DNA of 64,000 nt from the NCBI RefSeq assembly GCF_022026155.1, contig NZ_CP085041.1:590306-654305 (forward strand). The letters are read 5' to 3'. Below are positions 19,517 through 34,104 of the stretch, in pieces. The first letter of the stretch is position 1; every line of letters begins with the position of its first letter. The notes under the pieces are model-generated. The model searched no databases, was not told the origin of the DNA, and was given only the letters and a program-made list of their open reading frames with translations. This stretch comes from Dissulfurimicrobium hydrothermale. Lineage in GTDB: Bacteria; Desulfobacterota; Dissulfuribacteria; Dissulfuribacterales; Sh68. The position numbers were made by a program, and so were the translations under genes.

Positions 19517-19706
19517 GGAAGTTCGTCTCCTTTTTTTGATGAATGACTGTTCATTAAAGGTCTTGACACTGCGCGTGAATTTTGGTACGACCTAAGCCAT
19601 TAACCTTGTAAAGATACTCGATGTCCTTGCGGTACGATAGCCATGTTTTTTGTGGCATGCAAGACATCGGCCATACCTAATAATAATTTATGTCGGGGGG
19701 GGCAAG

Positions 19707-20867
19707 ATGAGTTCTTTTGGAGAGAAGATATCCGAGGTCTATGAGTCATTTTTCAAGCGGACGTGGTCTCCCATGACCGGAGGCGTGCTTCTTGCGGTAC
19801 TTGCCATTTACATGGAGGCATGGCAGCGTCCATGGGGTATCGTCGGCGGTCTTCGAAACTGGGGTGATTGGTTTTTTTATCTGATCGGCGTATTCGGAGA
19901 TAAGCCTGAACACCCCCTCTTTTTTTCATCGTCTGTCATGGACCTGGGGCTCCTTGCAGGCGCCTGGATATCGGCTGTCATAGCAAGGGAATTCGCCTTC
20001 AGGGTTCCTCCTGTCCTTGAGCTCTGGAAGGGGTTTTTCGCCGGGATCCTTATGGGCATAGGTTCGACCCTGGCCTATGGGTGCAATGTCGGCGGGTTCT
20101 ACAGCGCCATCCAGAACCTTGCGGCCAACGGTTTTGCCATGATGATCGGCCTTATAGCCGGTGTTATTGTAGGGCTTAAATACCTCTATTGGGAGATGGA
20201 GCACTTCACCCCGGGTCCCGCTGGGCCTACCTTTCTCGGCAACATCCCTCCAGCCATCGGGCTGCTCGGCATCATCGGTCTTGTAGTTGCGGCTTATGCC
20301 TATTCAAATTCAAGCGTGGAAAATGCCCCTCTCATGTCAGGTTATCTCCTGATAGGGGCGGGCATCGGTTTTGTCTTTCATAGGAGCAGGTTGTGCATGG
20401 TTAACGGCTTCCGTGAGCCGTTTATGACAGGTGAGGCGGCCATGGGCAAGGCTGTCGCGGTAAGCGTGATCCTCGGTACCATAGGCATAGCCATATTGAA
20501 ATATGCAGGTCTGAGGGATACAAGCCTTTTTGTTGTGACTTCCTTCTGGTGGGGTTCCCTTCTGGGTGGTTTTATCTTTGGAGCAGGGATGGTGGTGGCC
20601 GGTGGCTGCGGCAGCGGCTCTCTCTGGCGTGTGGCAGAGGGTCAGATAAAACTCTGGGTGGTGGTGGTCGCCTTTGCCCTTACCAACAGCCTCTTGCGCT
20701 ACTGGTTTGAGAAGAATGACTGGATGTCAAAGCTTGGCAAAGCGATCTATCTTCCGGATATTTTTGGATATGGCGGCTCTATCATCCTCGTGATAATCGC
20801 CATGTTGCTTTGGTATTTAGTGATCGATTGGAATGAGGACAGCAACAAGTTGGTCATAGAGATGTAA
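19707..20867 (+). CDS. yedE: YedE/YeeE-type sulfur-compound transporter (YTD cluster)
   Basis: Integral inner-membrane protein of 386 residues from ATG 19707, which has a long G-rich ribosome site just before it. About ten hydrophobic segments are visible. Two family cysteines stand out: in STLAYGCNVGGFYSAIQN and in VVAGGCGSGSLWRVAEGQ, matching the Cys residues lining the thiosulfate path of YeeE proteins. HRSRLCMVNGFREPF is another conserved segment. It heads a five-gene run with tusA, a dsrE-like gene and two small genes, the same content as the YTD cluster reported in sulfur-disproportionating bacteria. The transported species (thiosulfate or other reduced sulfur) is inferred. Confidence 0.9.
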   Translation: MSSFGEKISEVYESFFKRTWSPMTGGVLLAVLAIYMEAWQRPWGIVGGLRNWGDWFFYLIGVFGDKPEHPLFFSSSVMDLGLLAGAWISAVIAREFAFRVPPVLELWKGFFAGILMGIGSTLAYGCNVGGFYSAIQNLAANGFAMMIGLIAGVIVGLKYLYWEMEHFTPGPAGPTFLGNIPPAIGLLGIIGLVVAAYAYSNSSVENAPLMSGYLLIGAGIGFVFHRSRLCMVNGFREPFMTGEAAMGKAVAVSVILGTIGIAILKYAGLRDTSLFVVTSFWWGSLLGGFIFGAGMVVAGGCGSGSLWRVAEGQIKLWVVVVAFALTNSLLRYWFEKNDWMSKLGKAIYLPDIFGYGGSIILVIIAMLLWYLVIDWNEDSNKLVIEM

Positions 20868-20921
20868 TTTACAGAAATATAAGACTGTTTTGAAAAATAC
20901 TTAATAAATAAGGGAGGAGTT

Positions 20922-21179
20922 ATGAGCGACATCAAAAAGGCCCCTGACGGGATCACGGCTAATCGCACATTGGATGCAAAGGGACTCAGTTGCCCCATGC
21001 CTCTTTTGAGGACAAAGAAGGAGATCGAGAAGATCAAGAGTGGCGAGATCCTTGAGGTCTTGGGGACAGATCCTGGTTCCCGCAATGATATCCCGGGCTG
21101 GTGCGCCAGGGCTGGTCATGAATATCTGGGCGAAAAAGAAGACTCAGGCTTTATACGTTTTTACGTGCGTAAAAAATAA
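20922..21179 (+). CDS. tusA: TusA-family sulfurtransferase
   Basis: An 85-residue cytoplasmic sulfur carrier. The conserved persulfide site CPMP is at Cys24 (GLSCPMPLLRTKKEI), and the C-terminal strand pattern GFIRFYVRKK is typical. An AGGGAGGAG ribosome site precedes the ATG. In sulfur-metabolising organisms TusA passes sulfane sulfur between carriers such as DsrE and the membrane transporter; here it lies directly between the YedE-type transporter and a DsrE-like gene, supporting a dissimilatory relay and not only tRNA thiolation. A second Cys in GWCARAGHEY is also present. Confidence 0.93.
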   Translation: MSDIKKAPDGITANRTLDAKGLSCPMPLLRTKKEIEKIKSGEILEVLGTDPGSRNDIPGWCARAGHEYLGEKEDSGFIRFYVRKK

Positions 21180-21305
21180 GCCGAGGGGCAGAGCGGGTGT
21201 TTTTTATTTTATTTTCGGGCTGGGGTGGGTTGTGTGCAGGTTCCCCGGCACGGAAGAGAGTGAAATCTTTGATTAATTAATGTCAATTTTTGGAGGATAA
21301 TCAAG

Positions 21306-21638
21306 ATGTCTGCCGATCCAAACAAGCTGGGAATATTTGTAACATCTCCACAAAACATGCGCCATATCCTTGGCGTCGCCCAGGCGGCTGTAAGGGCAGG
21401 GAAAAAGGTCATGATCTTTTTTACATACAAGTCCGTCCATCTGACCAAGACCCCTGAGTTTGCAACCCTTGCCAATCTCTGCGACGTGGAAGATCTTGCA
21501 ATCTGCGCCGACAGTTATACCTGTGAAGGATACGACGTCGAGAAGGATGTCCCGCGCGGGCTTACCCCACGCCAGATGCGTACCCAGGCCTATCATGGGG
21601 CGGTACTGGAAGAGTGTGGTAAATATCTAGTGCTTTAA
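21306..21638 (+). CDS. DsrE-like sulfur-relay protein
   Basis: A 110-residue protein of the DsrE/DsrF-like superfamily: LGIFVTSPQNMRHILGVAQAAVRAGKKVMIFFTYKSV is the first beta-alpha-beta of the fold. Cysteines lie in NLCDVEDLAICADSYTCEGYD, any of which could carry a persulfide. GGAGG 10 bp upstream supports the start. It follows tusA by about 125 bp within the same run of genes. The role as persulfide carrier is inferred from fold and neighbours; it is not a standard DsrE of the DsrEFH complex, since no dsrF or dsrH-length partners are adjacent. Confidence 0.8.
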   Translation: MSADPNKLGIFVTSPQNMRHILGVAQAAVRAGKKVMIFFTYKSVHLTKTPEFATLANLCDVEDLAICADSYTCEGYDVEKDVPRGLTPRQMRTQAYHGAVLEECGKYLVL

Positions 21639-21656
21639 AAAAAGGAGAGATGAGAC

Positions 21657-21995
21657 ATGGAATCAAAAAAGATATATTTTTTATTGCCGAACCGCATGTA
21701 TGCCGGAGATGCCATACGCTCCGCACTTGGGCAGGCCGTTGAGAACCACTTTGCCTATCCAGTCCTTATGTATGGAGAGTATCCCAGGTTTTCAGATTAT
21801 GTAAAGGAGAATATCGACTGGATCAGGGATATGGAGGGCGATGTCTTTACCCTTGGCGGCGAGGCACCGGAAGGTGTCGAGCTTACCCCTATTACGCTTG
21901 AGGAGCTCGGTGAGCGTCTTCGGGAGGCGGATGTGATCATACCTTACGGACTGCCGAAGCAAAGCAAGACCCCGCCGCCTGCCTGTGCAGAGTAA
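21657..21995 (+). CDS. YTD-cluster hypothetical protein 1
   Basis: A 112-residue protein with IYFLLPNRMYAGDAIRSALGQAVENHFAYPVLMYG at the start, compatible with a DsrE-like alpha/beta fold but not clearly assignable. The middle is acidic (VKENIDWIRDMEGDVFTLGGEAPEG) and the end PPPACAE has a single Cys near the C-terminus. AAAGGAGAG lies before the ATG, and it follows the DsrE-like gene by 18 bp. In published YTD clusters two hypothetical genes follow yedE, tusA and dsrE; this is the first of that pair by position. Function unknown. Confidence 0.75.
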   Translation: MESKKIYFLLPNRMYAGDAIRSALGQAVENHFAYPVLMYGEYPRFSDYVKENIDWIRDMEGDVFTLGGEAPEGVELTPITLEELGERLREADVIIPYGLPKQSKTPPPACAE

Positions 21996-24159: not shown

Positions 24160-25575
24160 ATGGAGAGGGAAAAGACACGATATGGAAGGTGAATAGCCAC
24201 TTGGGCCAGGGGCCCTATTCTTGTCTTGTTTCTTGCATTTTCGTTTTTGGTCCAGCCTGCCTGGGCAATGGATACGTCTATCGGCGAAATAGACATCCGC
24301 AGTACCACCAGGTATCAACTCCAATGGTCAGATCCTCCTAACGGCAAGCTTGTTTCAAGCAATTCAAGCGATCAAGACATCTCTGAGATACTCGGCGTTG
24401 ACTGGAATTCGTCCAAAATCAATGGACTTTCCTTTTCCTTTCTGGGGAAATATGCAAAAGACCTCGATGGTACGCCGTCTGGCTCCATATTCCAGGATTA
24501 CCTGGATGCAAGCGGAGGTCAAAGGCAGAGGTTTGATGCATACTATGCCTTTGCCGAAAATAAAGATGTCATACCGGGTGTTGATCTTAGGCTAGGGCGC
24601 CAATATGCCTATGGAGCGGAAACAGTCCATTTTGATGGCTTATGGGTCAGGGCGGACAGGTCCCTGGATGAGCGTTTCAGCATAGAGGCCTTCGGCGGCC
24701 AGATAGTCCAGATGTATTCTAACCTTACCCAGGACGGTGTGGGCGGCGTCAATCTGGGCTTTTATCCATCGAAAGAACTTGCCTTGTATCTTAACAGCGT
24801 GTTTTATCGCGAAAATTCTTACGAGGCGTCAGCTTATTGGCGTCCGGTCGAATACATTAAGGCCAATGTCAGATGGGCGTTGATCGACGACAAGAGTCGT
24901 GAGGCATCCGTTGACGTGGTGGGTGATGTCGAGTCTACAGGTACTACCATAGGTTTCAATGTATATCATAGGTTCAGGGTAACCCTGCCTGACGATTTCA
25001 TCTACGATTATACATATTCAATGAGCGACAGTCTGAACAATATAAGGCGTCTCTATCTCTCCAGGGAGGAGGCGTATACCCAGTATACATTGTCGGTCAG
25101 CCAACCGATCCCTACACAGAAAGGTCTTGCTGTCTTCGTGCGCGGTACGAAGAGGGATCTAGCCCATGATAATCAGGAAGACCTGTATAATACCAGCTTT
25201 TATAGCCTTACATGCGGTCTTTCGCTTGATGAATGGCTCGAGTTGCATGGTTTTCATATGTCGGTCGGTGTGACTTCATGGTGGGAGAAGAGGGATTATC
25301 TTTATGAAGGTAAATCCAGATCGGTCTTCCTGGATTTTCATCAGGAACTCCCCTACAGGTTCGAGGTCAGTGGCGGTTTTTATTACAAGGATGAAGATGT
25401 CAATTCCCTCATCGAGGGTGAGGCCGCTGCACACTATTATGGTTCTCTGAGATATGGTTTTGCCAAGGACAAGTGGGCCGAGCTTAAGTATGAATATGAG
25501 CACGATGACTATTACAGGGAATTCGGTGTAGGAGATATAAATTCCATAACCGCTACGGTTTCCGCCCGTTTCTAG
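24160..25575 (+). CDS. Outer-membrane beta-barrel protein (porin-like) with in-frame TGA at codon 11
   Basis: A probable porin of an electron conduit. From TTG 24226 onward 449 codons are open: a hydrophobic stretch ending QPAWA, then amphipathic beta-strands rich in Tyr/Phe (RSTTRYQLQWSD, VDLRLGRQYAYG, ANVRWALIDDKS, YGSLRYGFAKDKWAELKYEYEHDDYY) and a C-terminal ...TATVSARF ending in Phe, the barrel-assembly signal. The TTG gives a signal peptide with no basic n-region. A better start is ATG 24160, 8 bp after AAGGGGGT; it adds a normal n-region (MEREKTRYGR, then IATWARGP) but places a TGA at 24190-24192 in frame as codon 11. This could be read through (see findings), be a mutation, or force reinitiation. 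Next genes encode cytochromes. Geobacter ExtI-type porins are the closest analogy I recall; unverified. Confidence 0.75.
24203..24215 (+). other. Short hairpin after the codon-11 TGA (SECIS-like, weak)
   Basis: GGGCC at 24203-24207 pairs with GGCCC at 24211-24215, loop AGG, starting its loop 15 nt after the TGA at 24190-24192. The geometry is one base short of the usual bacterial SECIS distance and the stem is only 5 bp. Confidence 0.3.
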
Positions 25576-25633: not shown

Positions 25634-26548
25634 ATGAATGAGTCGAGATCGCTCAAGTTTTTACTCATAATTTTGGTGTTGATTGGTCTGCTATTGCTAT
25701 TGCCAGGCTGTAAAAAAGAAGAGACCAATCTCAAATTTAACCACAAGCTGCACGTAATTGACAACCAGATGGCGTGTGCAACCTGCCATGCGTCAGGCGA
25801 AAAGGGAAAGCTGCAGAACCCAGGCATGGACAAGTGTTCCGAATGCCATGAAATAGATACTGACCATCCGTCTGAAAAGTGCCTTTTGTGCCATTCCGTA
25901 AAGAGCGCGGCCCACGATTACGAGGTGTCTGAGTCTGTACCGGAGAAACCGAAGAGCTATAAAGACCTCAAATTCAGCCATGAATATCATGAAGGTGTTG
26001 AATGTAATACGTGCCACAAGGGGATAGATAAACAGGATTCTCTCTCGCAAATAGAGTGGCCTGATATGTTTGTTTGCAAGAGGTGCCACAACGGGAAAGA
26101 GGCCCCGATCACCTGTGAGGTCTGCCATGAGAAGATCAGAAAGGATATAGCACCAGAGAGCCATCATGGCGACTGGACCATGCACCACGGCCTCGAGAGC
26201 CGTTTCGACAGGTCATGCCAGTTCTGTCATGAAAATCAGGAGCGCTTCTGTCAGGATTGCCACAGGACACAGAAGCCGAAGGATCATATATTCAATTGGA
26301 AGACGACGCAGCACGGCGAGGAGGCGACACATGACCGTCGTCTGTGCACGACTTGTCATACAGCAAGTTACTGTTCTGATTGTCACAGGTCAGAGCAGCC
26401 CATCTCGCACAGGCGTGCAGACTGGATGGCGCTCAGCCGAGAAAACGGCCATGCCGAGGAGGCGCGCCGCAATTTCAGGAGCTGCAATGTGTGTCACGAA
26501 ACAAGCGAGTGCATGAAGTGTCATCAGTCGATCATCTTGAGGAGATAG
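25634..26548 (+). CDS. 12-heme c-type cytochrome lipoprotein
   Basis: A 304-residue exported cytochrome. The N-terminus has a basic start, a long hydrophobic helix and LLPGCKK, a lipobox whose Cys26 would be lipidated. Twelve CXXCH heme-binding motifs can be counted: CATCH, CSECH, CLLCH, CNTCH, CKRCH, CEVCH, CQFCH, CQDCH, CTTCH, CSDCH, CNVCH and CMKCH. Many spare histidines can serve as distal ligands. The barrel gene ends 58 bp upstream and the octaheme cytochrome starts 65 bp downstream, so the three genes probably make one transmembrane electron path from periplasm to cell surface. Electron acceptor unknown. Confidence 0.9.
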   Translation: MNESRSLKFLLIILVLIGLLLLLPGCKKEETNLKFNHKLHVIDNQMACATCHASGEKGKLQNPGMDKCSECHEIDTDHPSEKCLLCHSVKSAAHDYEVSESVPEKPKSYKDLKFSHEYHEGVECNTCHKGIDKQDSLSQIEWPDMFVCKRCHNGKEAPITCEVCHEKIRKDIAPESHHGDWTMHHGLESRFDRSCQFCHENQERFCQDCHRTQKPKDHIFNWKTTQHGEEATHDRRLCTTCHTASYCSDCHRSEQPISHRRADWMALSRENGHAEEARRNFRSCNVCHETSECMKCHQSIILRR

Positions 26549-26613: not shown

Positions 26614-29600
26614 ATGTCTAACAAAATTACAAGGATTTCAAGATCAATCTTGTGGGTGATAGCAGCAGGTCTCATTATCCCGGCCCTGGCGTTCGCTCAC
26701 CCGGCGGTCCGACTCCTGGACGCCAACGGGATGCCTATAAAAGATCAGTTGAATCCGTCGGATACGGTGGTTGCCGCAAATGGTTCAGTTTATATGAGGG
26801 GTCCTGCCTACAGCCCGAAGCAGACATGTGGCAAGTGCCATGACTATCAGGCGATTACAAGGGCCTATCACTTCCGTGAAGGCGCTGGCGCCTACGGTCA
26901 GGACCTTAGCGACCACTGGAGCGCGAAAAACAAAGATAACCCCCTTTACCGCTATCTAGCCAATGCCTATGGGCATCTGATAAGCCCTGGGCAATTCGGC
27001 GCGTGGTGACCGCCGTCTTACCGCCAGTTGGCGGCTAAGTCGGAGCGTGGTGGATTAAAAAGCCCATTTACCTCAGAGGGCAAGAGATACTTTTTTGATG
27101 TCGGGACCGCTGATGAGATGGGGGTCTGTTACTCATGCCATCCAGGCGGTGGGCCTGCAGAGGGCATCGTTCAGGCAAACGGAACGGTTATTCCCTATAC
27201 GGATTCGACTCTCAAGCCTGTTCATACCTATGATAGGGATTTCTACGATTACAGCCCGTATGCCACTACAGAGGCATTGAATAGCCAGGCGTCAATCAGC
27301 GATACCATAGCTGCAATTGGTGCGCCCAAGGCGCACGACTGGCATCAGTCAGGCGTCATGGAGGCGGACTGCCTCCTATGTCATATCGATCCTCAGAGTC
27401 CATATGCACTGAAGGCTGCGGATGGGCTAAAGGCCCAGCCGTTCAGGCCTAGGCTTATGATCTTTGCATCCAGACAAAACGGTCAGGTGCAGAGCATCTC
27501 GCTCGGCATGCCGTTAAATTATGGGCTTTTTAATGAATCGGCCTTTTCCTATACCAACGATCCCCAGAGGATGTCCAGGCCGACGAAGATGTTGGCCCTT
27601 GACATGTTGCCGCCAGATGTCGTTGGGCAGATGATGAAGATGTGGACAGACGGGCTCAAACAAATAGAAAAAAGCGGGATAAGCCTTCCTTACGCCCTTT
27701 ACGGCCCGAATGTCAACAAGATATGGACATCAACCGGTATAAAAGGCGCCTATTGTCCAAACCCGGCAGGGCCTGCGGATGAGGCTGCCAGGCTTGCAAA
27801 CGCCGCTGGCGCCATAAACCAGCTCTTTTCTCAACTCCTTGGATTCATGCAGTCCAAAGGTCTTATCTCGTCAAGTGCCACCATGAACGACATGATGGCC
27901 CTATTTTTTAACGATTTTATATATGGTTACAAGATAAAGGACCAGATGGGCAACCTCCTTCCCATACCTGTTCCTTTAAGGGCGTATGAGCCAGGGAAAT
28001 TCTATACCGACTGGGATGACTGTAATGCCTCTGTAAGGGATTATGTGAGGGCCCCGCTTATCGAAGGTGAAGGCATTCCTTACTCAGGCAAGGTCGGCAT
28101 GGGCTGGGGGGCGGCCATGTATGCCGTGCAGAGGGCTATGCAGGGGGATAGCCGCTATATCACCCCTGCCGGGACCCCGGATGTGGCTGCAGTTATGGCC
28201 GATGTGCAAAAGGGTGTTATAAGTCAAAGTGCGATCCAGCCGGCCCTTCATGAGTATTTGCCCAACTTTTTCTATATGATGCCTACAGCGGGTTTAATGG
28301 GGCTTGATCTCAATCAGGACGGCGCGCCCCTTACTTATGTGCGTATTGACAAGAGCGGCGGGAGCTGGCAGGCGAAGGCGTATTGGAACACAGCAGACCT
28401 TGGGGATGGATATCTCCGCATAGACATGTTTGGAGGTCCTAAAGATATAGGCTCATACAAGTGGGTCAATATATGCGGCCAGTGCCATGTGATGACCAAA
28501 GATCACGGTAACAGCGAATGGAATTACGCCCGTCCCTACAACCTCGGGATGCCTGCCGACTGGGTCAAAAATGGCCAGTATGTCAATTTCACCAACGATA
28601 TAGAGGCGTCCGGTTATGATGTTCATATGTCATCAAAGAAGATGGGTTGCGGATCGTGTCATCTTAGGGCGGTCGGTACGGTAGAGGATAAGCATAATTT
28701 CTTGAAGGGTACCGATACCGCTCACATGGTCAGCAACGAGCTTGACAATAATCCGAAACCGAAGACATGCGAGTATTGTCACCTTTCGGGCGGTGATCCG
28801 CAGGCGCCTAATCCTACCGCCGCCCATGAGGAGAAATTCGGCGAAAATACAGGCCGTCACATGGCTGAGATCGCCTGCGAGACATGCCATGTGCCGTATA
28901 GAAGGACGTGGCGTTTCAGGACATTTGACGACACCATGGGATATTTCAGCAATTTTGACAACCGCATGGGTTACAATATACTCCCCGGCGGTGACGGCAA
29001 GATGGCTGCCTATCCGCCCGAATATGCCCTGTCCCCTGTCTATGGGACGTCTCCAGGGTACGGCATAGCGCACTTCAATATGCTATCACAACATATAGAC
29101 GCAAATGGTGGTGGCGTGGTGCCCATGGACTATGTCTCACAGATGGTGGACTACTTCAACATGAGCGGCTCAGCCGATCCAGGTCAAATTGTGAACGGCA
29201 TGCCTACGAATCCTGGCTTTGATTTCTGGCGTTATTTCTATGAGGCAAGCCTGAATCAGTACAAGGCCATGGGTGTCCCGTTGAACTATGACCCGGCCCA
29301 CGACAATGAGGTATTTCCGCCTCTATACTATGCAAACTCAAGAAACGGTTATCCGCAGATAGTGATTGGCAATCCGATTACTATCATGACATGGGTTGAC
29401 GCCAACCCGCAGCCGGATCACGATATGAGTGATCTGCCATACGGCGGGGCCAAGGTGCTCTATCTAAGGGAGATAAATGCAGCTATACAGGCTTATATCC
29501 CGCCGCTCCAGGTCGGGGCTGTTGATCCAAGGACGCTTGCAGGCATCCCGCCGAATGATCCCAACTGGGCAAGGAACCCAAATGTGGGCAAGATCATTCT

Positions 29601-30594
29601 AAAAGACAGCGGCTATGTCATATTCGACCATACCGGAGACATGTATCCCGATCTGTGGTGGGACGAGGATGTGCGCGCCATGCAGCAGGCACTAGTGAAG
29701 GTCCTGAAGGCAGAGGGCGAAACAGATCCCAAGCCGATCATCTTTGTGGCCGCCCATTATTTCTCCGATTCGCACGGGGTTCAGCCAAAGGAGAAGGCAT
29801 TGGGCGCAAGATCCTGCTTCGACTGTCATGGGGATTATACAAAAGATCCAGGTGCGCACAGGATTACCGACAGGATTATCACTTATGTGTCGTGGGCCCC
29901 GCCTTGGTTCAGGGATGATAATCGTGTCATGAAGTATGACCCGGCAAAGGGCATGGTCCCGGCCAACCCGAATGGCCTCTTCATAGTTGACGGCGAGGTG
30001 GCCTACATTCAGCCGCAGCAAGCCGACAACTTGAGCGTACTCGGCGCTAAGGCCCAAGACGTCTTGGCCCTTAGTAAACATCATGCAGAGGAGCTCTTCT
30101 ATATAACGAGCGAAGGCAGCGTTCGCGGTTATGATATAACCGAGATCAACGATCCATCGAAATTTACCCCGGATGAGCTGGCCGCAGAATACGCCAAACA
30201 GGTGGTAAATGGCCCTTGGTCGGACAAGCTCTATTTCTATATACCCGAAGATCTGAAGCCCGAGCTTTCAGAGTGCGGTTTTCAGCCGCAGGCCGAGTCT
30301 GTCTACCTCGACGGCATCGGCCTTGCCGATGCCTATGTGCTGAGGTTGGGGCTTAATACCGCGGAGAAAAAGGCCATGATCGTTAAACTGCCTTTCACTG
30401 GGGCACAGCCGGAGATCTGGACCAAGGTTGCAGGCGATACCGTATTCAGGAAAGACGCAAGCGCAGCTATTGTAGGGTATTCGAGTGCCTATGTAGTAGC
30501 GAAGGTCAATCATCCTGGCGAATTTGTCTGTGTTGAACATGGCCTTGTCTCAGGCGCTAACTCCGATCTCTGGAAACCATTCATAAAGAAATAG
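26614..30594 (+). CDS. Octaheme c-type cytochrome, predicted selenoprotein (UGA codon 132 read as Sec)
   Basis: Predicted product 1326 residues. A signal peptide (SRSILWVIAAGLIIPALAFA) is followed by the first heme motif CGKCH, then a TGA at 27007-27009 directly after ...GQFGAW. The same frame stays open for 1194 further codons with seven more motifs: CYSCH, CLLCH, CGQCH, CGSCH, CEYCH, CETCH, CFDCH. The downstream part has no signal peptide and only a TTG within the hairpin as start, yet needs export for heme attachment, so one protein with selenocysteine at 132 fits best. A SECIS-like hairpin lies at 27017-27039. GGGAGG precedes the ATG. I recall that Geobacter ExtKL cytochromes are similarly split; alignment would settle it. 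A nonsense mutation is the alternative. Confidence 0.8.
27017..27039 (+). promoter_or_regulatory. Predicted bacterial SECIS element, octaheme cytochrome
   Basis: CTTA (27017-27020) pairs with TAAG (27036-27039), CCGCC (27021-27025) pairs with GGCGG (27030-27034), C27035 is bulged and the loop is AGTT (27026-27029). Nine base pairs in all, with G as the second loop base. Exactly 16 nt separate the TGA from the loop, within the 16-37 range known for bacterial SECIS elements. Confidence 0.75.
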
Positions 30595-32253: not shown

Positions 32254-34104
32254 TTATCTTTCAAGACCTTGCAAAAAGATCTTGCCTTTTTCGCAGACAG
32301 GCGGGGCATGCAGCGGGGTCCAATTTCGCATTACAGGGTCGCTGAAGTCTTTGTGGCAATTCAAGCACAGGCCTACATATAGTATTCTTGTAATCTCGTT
32401 TCTGTTAAAGGGTCGCAGATTCGGTCTTGATGTATGAACCAACGGCCTTCCGGCAAGGCCCACGAAGGCATCTAGGGGGTGACTGATACCGCCTGATGGT
32501 GCGGATGACAAGGCAGGGCGGAAGCCCCATGTGCCATTTCGGCGGATGAAAAGATTTCCCTCGCCGAGCCCTAGTGCCCTTGGGTCTTGGTGGCATTCCT
32601 TGCAGGTCCTTGCCTTTTTCTGTGTAGTATGCGGGTCCATCCACGAAATGGTGAGTCTTGTGAAGTCCTTTTTCCATTTCCCCCTTTCGTCCAGAAAGGA
32701 TGCGAAATCTTGTCATCCAGGCACCAGGATCACCACCTTGTCCTGGTCTGTACCATCCTTCTTTTCTTCCATTATGCCAAGAGACGGTGCGTCAAGGCGC
32801 ATGAAGCCCTTGAACTCCTGCCATAGACCAGGGGTATTTTTATTTACTACTTTGTCAAGCTGTGGTTTTGCCTTCTCATTTCTCACATGGCATCCAAAGC
32901 ACTGAGGCACCCATGTGCTGTGGCAGGCCTGACATGAAAGGCGCCGGTGAACCGGGTGGTTGCACGCCGTCTGGTCAGGATTTTTTAAAGGATGGAGCTT
33001 TTTGTCATTTTTGCCTAACAGGAAAAAACGGCCATCTTTGGACTCGATGTTCAGTCTGGGATACAGGGGGATCTTGTCACCCTTTGGGTATAGTTTTTCA
33101 TCATCGGATTTATTGATTTTGTACATATATTCCAGGGCCTTTTCGTCCCCGTGACACAGAGAGCAATTTATCTCAAGCTGGTACTCCATGTGCGGCCTCT
33201 GCACACCGTCTCCCATGGTCTCTCTCTGTGTGTGGCAGTCGATGCAGATAAGACCTGCCTTGTGATGGACGTCTTCAGGGAGATCTTGATAAAAACGGCC
33301 GTCTTCCAGGACTTTGTTGTTTGGATGTCCTGCCTCAAGAGGGGCGCCGTAGCCGTCGGTTTCATAAATGCCCTGATATGAAAGCCCGATCCGCCCGCTG
33401 CGGTTGTGGCAACGCACACAGTTTTCCATGGGGATGGACCTGGTTATATATGGGTGTTCCTGTCCCTTTTTTATATCTTTCGGCCCGGGCACAAGGTGAC
33501 AGGCCGTGCACCCTCCACCTTTGTGTTTCAGAAAATAGGGCAGGGTTCTTCTTTCAACCCAGAGATGGCAGCTCCCGCACAGCTTTCTGAAGTAATCGGT
33601 CGCAGGTGAGTCGAACCCGGTTTTTTTGAGATATTCTACGGTTATCGCCTCGTTGTGGTTTTTGGTCTCGCCCCAATAGTACCTAAGTGTGCTTATGATC
33701 CCGCGGTTTGTGGCCATCAATGAATTCTTGACCCAGGCGGCCTCCCGCGGGTGGCAGCCCTCTTGTCCGCAGGTCTCTCCGACGTATTTCAACTCGCCGG
33801 GGTTTAGGACCATGCCCCTATGGGCATCGAATACGTCGCCTGAAAGTGGATTACCCATATGGCATACGGAACAACCAAGAACCTCCCGACCATGCGCCTT
33901 ATCAGGTGTTTCCTTGTGGCAGCTGAGGCACATTTCCACCCTGCCGCCTGAAGTGCGGCTGACGGTCACCGCCTTCCTTGGGATATCTTTTCCACCCATT
34001 TTCTTTTCTGGGCGTGCAAGTGCTGCAAGGCCGAGGATGATCAAGACCACGGAAAGGGTGGTAATGCACACAAAGAATGTCTTTTGAGACAGGTTGCGGC
34101 ACAT
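32254..34104 (-). CDS. 12-heme c-type cytochrome, predicted selenoprotein (UGA codon 464 read as Sec)
   Basis: Predicted product 616 residues. An N-terminal membrane anchor or signal (TFFVCITTLSVVLIILGLAAL) precedes CLSCH, CSVCH, the variant CGQEGCH (CX4CH), CGSCH, CTACH, CVRCH, CIDCH, CSLCH, CQACH and CFGCH. After ...DKVVILVPG a TGA (32715-32713) interrupts, but the frame continues QDFASFLDERGKWKKDF and includes CKECH and CLNCH before a normal stop. The 3' part has no ribosome site or signal peptide, so a single protein with Sec464 is favoured. A SECIS-like hairpin starts 19 nt after the TGA. No Shine-Dalgarno is seen before ATG 34104, which lies just behind the pyrophosphatase terminator. 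Redox function inferred from hemes. Confidence 0.78.
32683..32699 (-). promoter_or_regulatory. Predicted bacterial SECIS element, 12-heme cytochrome
   Basis: On the minus strand CCTTTC (32699-32694) pairs with GAAAGG (32688-32683), loop TGGAC, with a further T-G pair at the base. G is the second loop base and the loop begins 19 nt after the in-frame TGA. These are the expected features of a bacterial SECIS. Confidence 0.68.

Follow-up and report, generated by a model that had tools for sequence, protein, structure and literature searches.

Selenocytochromes have barely been studied. The part of a 2026 prokaryotic selenoproteome catalogue available to us lists ExtKL and selenocysteine (Sec)-containing cytochromes of the OTR family (PMC13188914), and none of the open-licence papers found on selenocysteine and octaheme describes, by title or abstract, the family that we report here. 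ExtKL of Geobacter (NF040886; PMC5877670, PMC6148476) is a predicted Sec-containing c-type cytochrome encoded in a porin-containing cluster; it is a pentaheme whose second part is Ig-like (PMC11976967), and its TGA parts the pentaheme from a small second protein (PMC6148476). Other systems with which our locus can be compared are the OTR octaheme family (TIGR04315; PDB 1SP3), the octaheme sulfite reductase MccA (PDB 4RKM/4RKN) and the MtrCAB-type conduits, in which a porin and multiheme cytochromes share one operon. The organism studied here, Dissulfurimicrobium hydrothermale Sh68T, is an obligate sulfur disproportionator in which a YTD sulfur cluster has been described; the word selenocysteine does not occur in the paper reporting it (PMC8780430).

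The window that we analysed, a stretch of 64,000 nt of the D. hydrothermale genome, contains a gene for a predicted Sec-containing octaheme cytochrome, hereafter Sec-octaheme (Table 1). Like the OTR proteins, Sec-octaheme has eight c-hemes in the same order, with a significant profile match over hemes 4-8 and with Sec or Cys in the segment that separates hemes 1 and 2, but it is about 2.5 times longer, is linked to a porin-cytochrome operon and has the Sec motif GxWUPPSYRQ where OTR has NNFUI. It resembles ExtKL in being a predicted Sec c-type cytochrome from a porin-containing cluster and differs in that its TGA falls between hemes 1 and 2. With MccA it has in common that it is an octaheme, although there is no significant sequence or fold match between them. 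Finally, the operon is reminiscent of MtrCAB-type conduits, and Sec-octaheme has an MtrC/MtrF-like domain match at residues 614-763, but the large partner in our operon, a Sec octaheme, has a signal peptide and lacks a lipobox, and it is the 12-heme partner that is the lipoprotein.

Table 1. Positions of the features discussed in the text, numbered from the first nucleotide of the window
Feature	Position	Strand	Remarks
Outer-membrane porin-like beta-barrel candidate	24226..25575	+	signal-type N terminus; C-terminal ...TVSARF
12-heme c-type cytochrome lipoprotein	25634..26548	+	lipobox LLLLPGC; cytochrome c7-type repeats
Sec-containing octaheme cytochrome (predicted)	26614..30594	+	1326 aa; Sec would be residue 132
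UGA codon, predicted to be read as Sec	27007..27009	+	TGA at the same column in all covering orthologs; Cys (rarely Leu/Ser) in distant relatives
Bacterial SECIS hairpin	27017..27039	+	stem of 9 bp with one bulge; loop AGUU (27026-27029) at the apex
ExtM-like 12-heme cytochrome	32257-34104	-	in-frame TGA at 32713-32715; NF040943 277.6 bits, below cut-off

A conserved TGA within one octaheme frame

The two open reading frames that flank the TGA are predicted to be a single gene. Its frame of 1326 codons contains one internal stop, the TGA at codon 132, which the earlier note had correctly singled out as the sole interruption. That note had also assigned a signal peptide and one CXXCH to the upstream part and seven CXXCH to the downstream part. 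We find the same division: cleavage is expected at about the junction of AFA and HP, and the heme motifs begin at residues 72, 172, 253, 621, 679, 719, 755 and 1068, so that the TGA falls between the first and the remaining seven. Its description of the gene thus proved right in all details.

We searched 60 related genomes and 395 from across the phylum. All orthologs that span the site, about 30 distinct rows at 58-100% identity, have a single in-frame TGA; its column never varies, and the motif around it is G(A/G)WUPPSYRQ. Distant relatives have Sec or Cys at this column, rarely Leu or Ser, and the wider motif between hemes 1 and 2 can be written G-x-x-G-x-W-(U/C)-P. Alignment of homologues across the TGA, which the earlier note had proposed as a check, returned TGA or Cys with few instances of Leu or Ser. 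When 23 members of the superfamily were aligned, the eight CXXCH motifs were invariant or nearly so and the Sec/Cys column was near-invariant, and an alignment of 50 members agreed on both counts. A tree of 60 rows, of which 48 have Sec, 9 Cys, 2 Leu and 1 Ser, has several long branches and is unsure in its details; on it the Sec state requires at least six changes. A few relatives have Leu or Ser at the column, which implies that some paralogs can do without the residue. Among the paralogs are very long proteins without a TGA at the column, where Leu or Cys replaces Sec (L107/L047 and L108; 19 hemes in a 1913-aa frame and 8 hemes in 2354 aa, respectively).

The SECIS element and the Sec machinery

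We assessed the SECIS element by folding, covariation and codon-conservation tests. Its stem, CUUACCGCC/GGCGG(C)UAAG, of 9 bp and with a single bulged C, begins 7 nt after the TGA; the loop follows at 16 nt from the TGA, with G as its second base. The geometry given in the earlier note is confirmed in full. The hairpin exceeds what would be expected by chance: (i) 2 of 200 dinucleotide shuffles (z = -2.97) and 4 of 2000 synonymous recodings folded as well as the native sequence; (ii) in 18 sequences, namely that of the window and 17 orthologs, codons 134-142 had the lowest synonymous-codon entropy of 137 windows along the gene (0.13 versus a gene mean of 0.82), the codons for PSYRQ-AAK being nearly frozen synonymously and those of the rest of the gene not; (iii) stem sequences vary across subfamilies (CCGCC/GGCGG, TTTCGCC/GGCGAAA, CTCGAC/GTCGAG and GCGGCC/GGCCGC) with pairing kept, 98.2% of cells being paired and both sides having changed, in a compensatory manner, in 3 of 5 pairs; and (iv) none of 500 shuffles matched the observed percentage paired or the covariation score.

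All TGA members have a hairpin with an AGTT or AGGT loop, bar one unclear case (L058), and members with Cys, Leu or Ser are without it, except for L052-L054. In the paralog L047, which has Leu at the column, the hairpin has decayed, as would be expected once Sec had been lost. L052, L053 and L054 belong to the superfamily and have TGT in place of the Sec codon, yet their SECIS hairpin is intact; this could reflect either a recent change from Sec to Cys or recoding of a Cys codon. Searches of G018, G028, G034 and G036 for a tRNA-Sec with a GCA anticodon gave none at E <= 1e-8.

The earlier note had also advised looking for the Sec genes, all of which are present: the D. hydrothermale genome encodes selA, two copies of selB, selD and selC (tRNA-Sec, UCA anticodon), and selD has an in-frame TGA of its own (Sec-containing). 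Conservation of the TGA, exchange with Cys, constraint on the SECIS element and the sel genes all strongly support the Sec reading, and we consider it almost certain, on these genomic grounds, that Sec is inserted at codon 132.

Kinship with the OTR family

The earlier note had likened the gene to the ExtKL cytochromes of Geobacter. This likeness did not hold up as one of family: ExtKL is a pentaheme of other architecture (PMC5877670, PMC11976967), and an NCBIfam scan of Sec-octaheme gave no match to the ExtKL model (NF040886), so that membership was rejected. The nearer kin are the OTR octahemes. The same scan returned a trace match to NrfH and a match to the OTR family (TIGR04315) of 40.4 bits against a cut-off of 375, confined to residues 666-762. 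Membership of TIGR04315 was rejected on the cut-off and remote homology was kept; profile comparison with OTR (hhalign) gave a probability of 99.7% and E = 8e-27 over hemes 4-8, and a further profile comparison had a similar outcome. The halves containing hemes 1-3 align weakly, hemes 2 and 3 being weakly matchable. Sec-octaheme is thus a very large and remote relative of OTR, and we would place it in a large, mostly uncharacterised octaheme superfamily among the multiheme enzymes of the NrfA/OTR/MccA group. An AlphaFold2 model of residues 28-1200 (pLDDT 83.5) found no solved homolog in a structure search, and the model of a compact superfamily relative had MccA as its best structural match, at a non-significant E of 0.1. 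PHROGs and plasmid searches returned nothing.

OTR-family proteins of this phylum often have one TGA themselves; the residue concerned lies between hemes 1 and 2, in the motif NNF(U/C) (Sec at NNFU is found in L161, L165, L166, L171, L175 and others). This residue is about 11 residues before heme 2 and corresponds by alignment to Cys64 of PDB 1SP3. In OTR, Cys64 is presumably close to heme 2, the heme of the active site. Since the Sec or Cys of OTR is also found between hemes 1 and 2, the position of Sec132 can be called topologically analogous, in the same inter-heme segment. A residue-for-residue equivalence of Sec132 and Cys64 could not be demonstrated: 40 residues separate Sec132 from heme 2, against about 11 in OTR, and hhalign of the N-terminal halves pairs the OTR Cys with positions immediately preceding heme 2 and not with Sec132.

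The porin-cytochrome operon

The porin candidate, the 12-heme lipoprotein and Sec-octaheme are consecutive, with gaps within 70 nt, and the same order recurs in 18 other genomes, including those of distant relatives at about 30% identity. The porin-cytochrome context to which the earlier note had drawn attention is therefore real and conserved. The porin candidate has no Pfam or NCBIfam match, so its naming as a porin rests on sequence features and context and the barrel is putative.

About 2 kb upstream of the operon (19650-21995) are the YTD marker genes of sulfur disproportionation (yedE, tusA, a dsrE-like gene and a hypothetical). A YTD cluster was not found beside the Sec-octaheme orthologs that we examined, and was seen in the D. 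hydrothermale genome only. A link between the cluster and Sec-octaheme was dropped for this reason.

Possible functions of Sec132

We favor the possibility, and think it probable, that Sec-octaheme is a redox enzyme which depends on Sec and is supplied by way of a conduit in the outer membrane. According to this working model, UGA-132 would be decoded as Sec by SelB and tRNA-Sec through the SECIS element directly downstream, giving an exported octaheme c-type cytochrome of 1326 residues. Sec would belong to a substrate site near heme 2, as a residue that is either reactive or a metal/heme ligand. Electrons would pass between the hemes and the 12-heme lipoprotein and porin encoded alongside, which would allow the reduction or oxidation, across the outer membrane, of a substrate presumably located at the cell surface. 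The enzyme perhaps acts on sulfur compounds, the likeliest substrates being polysulfide/S0, tetrathionate/thiosulfate or sulfite.

A different role for an inserted Sec is conceivable but unlikely: the residue could be structural or a ligand (heme axial, Cu/Zn or redox-protective) in a cytochrome that is purely an electron-transfer conduit and not catalytic. The co-encoded porin and 12-heme lipoprotein, the MtrC/MtrF-like domain match and the Leu or Ser found at the column in some paralogs would all be in keeping with such a role. A reactive site is nevertheless the better fit to the interchange of Sec and Cys in an OTR-like superfamily, where the OTR proteins too have this residue between hemes 1 and 2. 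Most characterised bacterial selenoproteins have Sec in their redox active sites, which makes a structural or ligand role less fitting.

It is very improbable that the choice between Sec insertion and termination is itself the point, as a regulatory switch by which selenium-poor cells would make only a monoheme peptide of 131 residues. The UGA does come early, and the upstream product would have a signal peptide and one heme site, but the same is true of many selenoproteins and nothing that we saw hints at a function for the short product; such a switch would, moreover, be compatible with a Sec-dependent enzyme. We give practically no credence to the TGA being a sequencing error, a true stop between two genes or the mark of a pseudogene, for although standard annotation would split the gene at this point, the same TGA is present in many independently sequenced genomes, the SECIS element is conserved and the frame 3' of the TGA is open for 1188 codons and under strong constraint. 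Standard gene calling splits such genes, and their length, heme count and function are therefore easily misread.

Returning to the Sec-dependent enzyme that we favor, Sec or Cys stands between hemes 1 and 2 throughout a superfamily of larger octahemes to which, in this clade, an outer-membrane conduit is attached. Such proteins are predicted for D. hydrothermale and dozens of its relatives, and they point towards a class of selenium-dependent heme enzymes that has received little attention. A more specific proposal, which is speculative and which we think will rather turn out wrong than right, is that they form a new enzyme class, located at the cell surface, with a single active site made up of Sec and a c-heme; these heme enzymes would carry out a sulfur-compound step in D. 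hydrothermale and its relatives (for example, attack on S0 or polysulfide in disproportionation), with electrons crossing the outer membrane by way of the porin and the 12-heme lipoprotein.

A second predicted selenocytochrome and an unusual tRNA

The window is predicted to encode a second Sec cytochrome, the ExtM-like 12-heme protein of Table 1, which has the motif LVPGUQDF at its TGA. The TGA is kept in most orthologs of the order and replaced by Cys (TGT) in two. As the hairpin energy of the single sequence is not significant, the case for this gene is built on three observations: the conserved TGA, its replacement by Cys and a recurring CTGGA loop.

Elsewhere in the genome, directly upstream of the second selB, there is a second tRNA-Sec-like gene, with a GCA (Cys) anticodon (L002 1501-1589 and downstream; genome C1:1461214-1463225). 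The pair of GCA tRNA-Sec-like gene and selB recurs in G005, G006 and G031, and in G005 and G031 it adjoins a formate dehydrogenase-like gene with the Cys codon TGC at VCHAPSV. This arrangement suggests insertion of Sec at Cys codons, for which there is precedent in Aeromonas salmonicida (PMC10778597).
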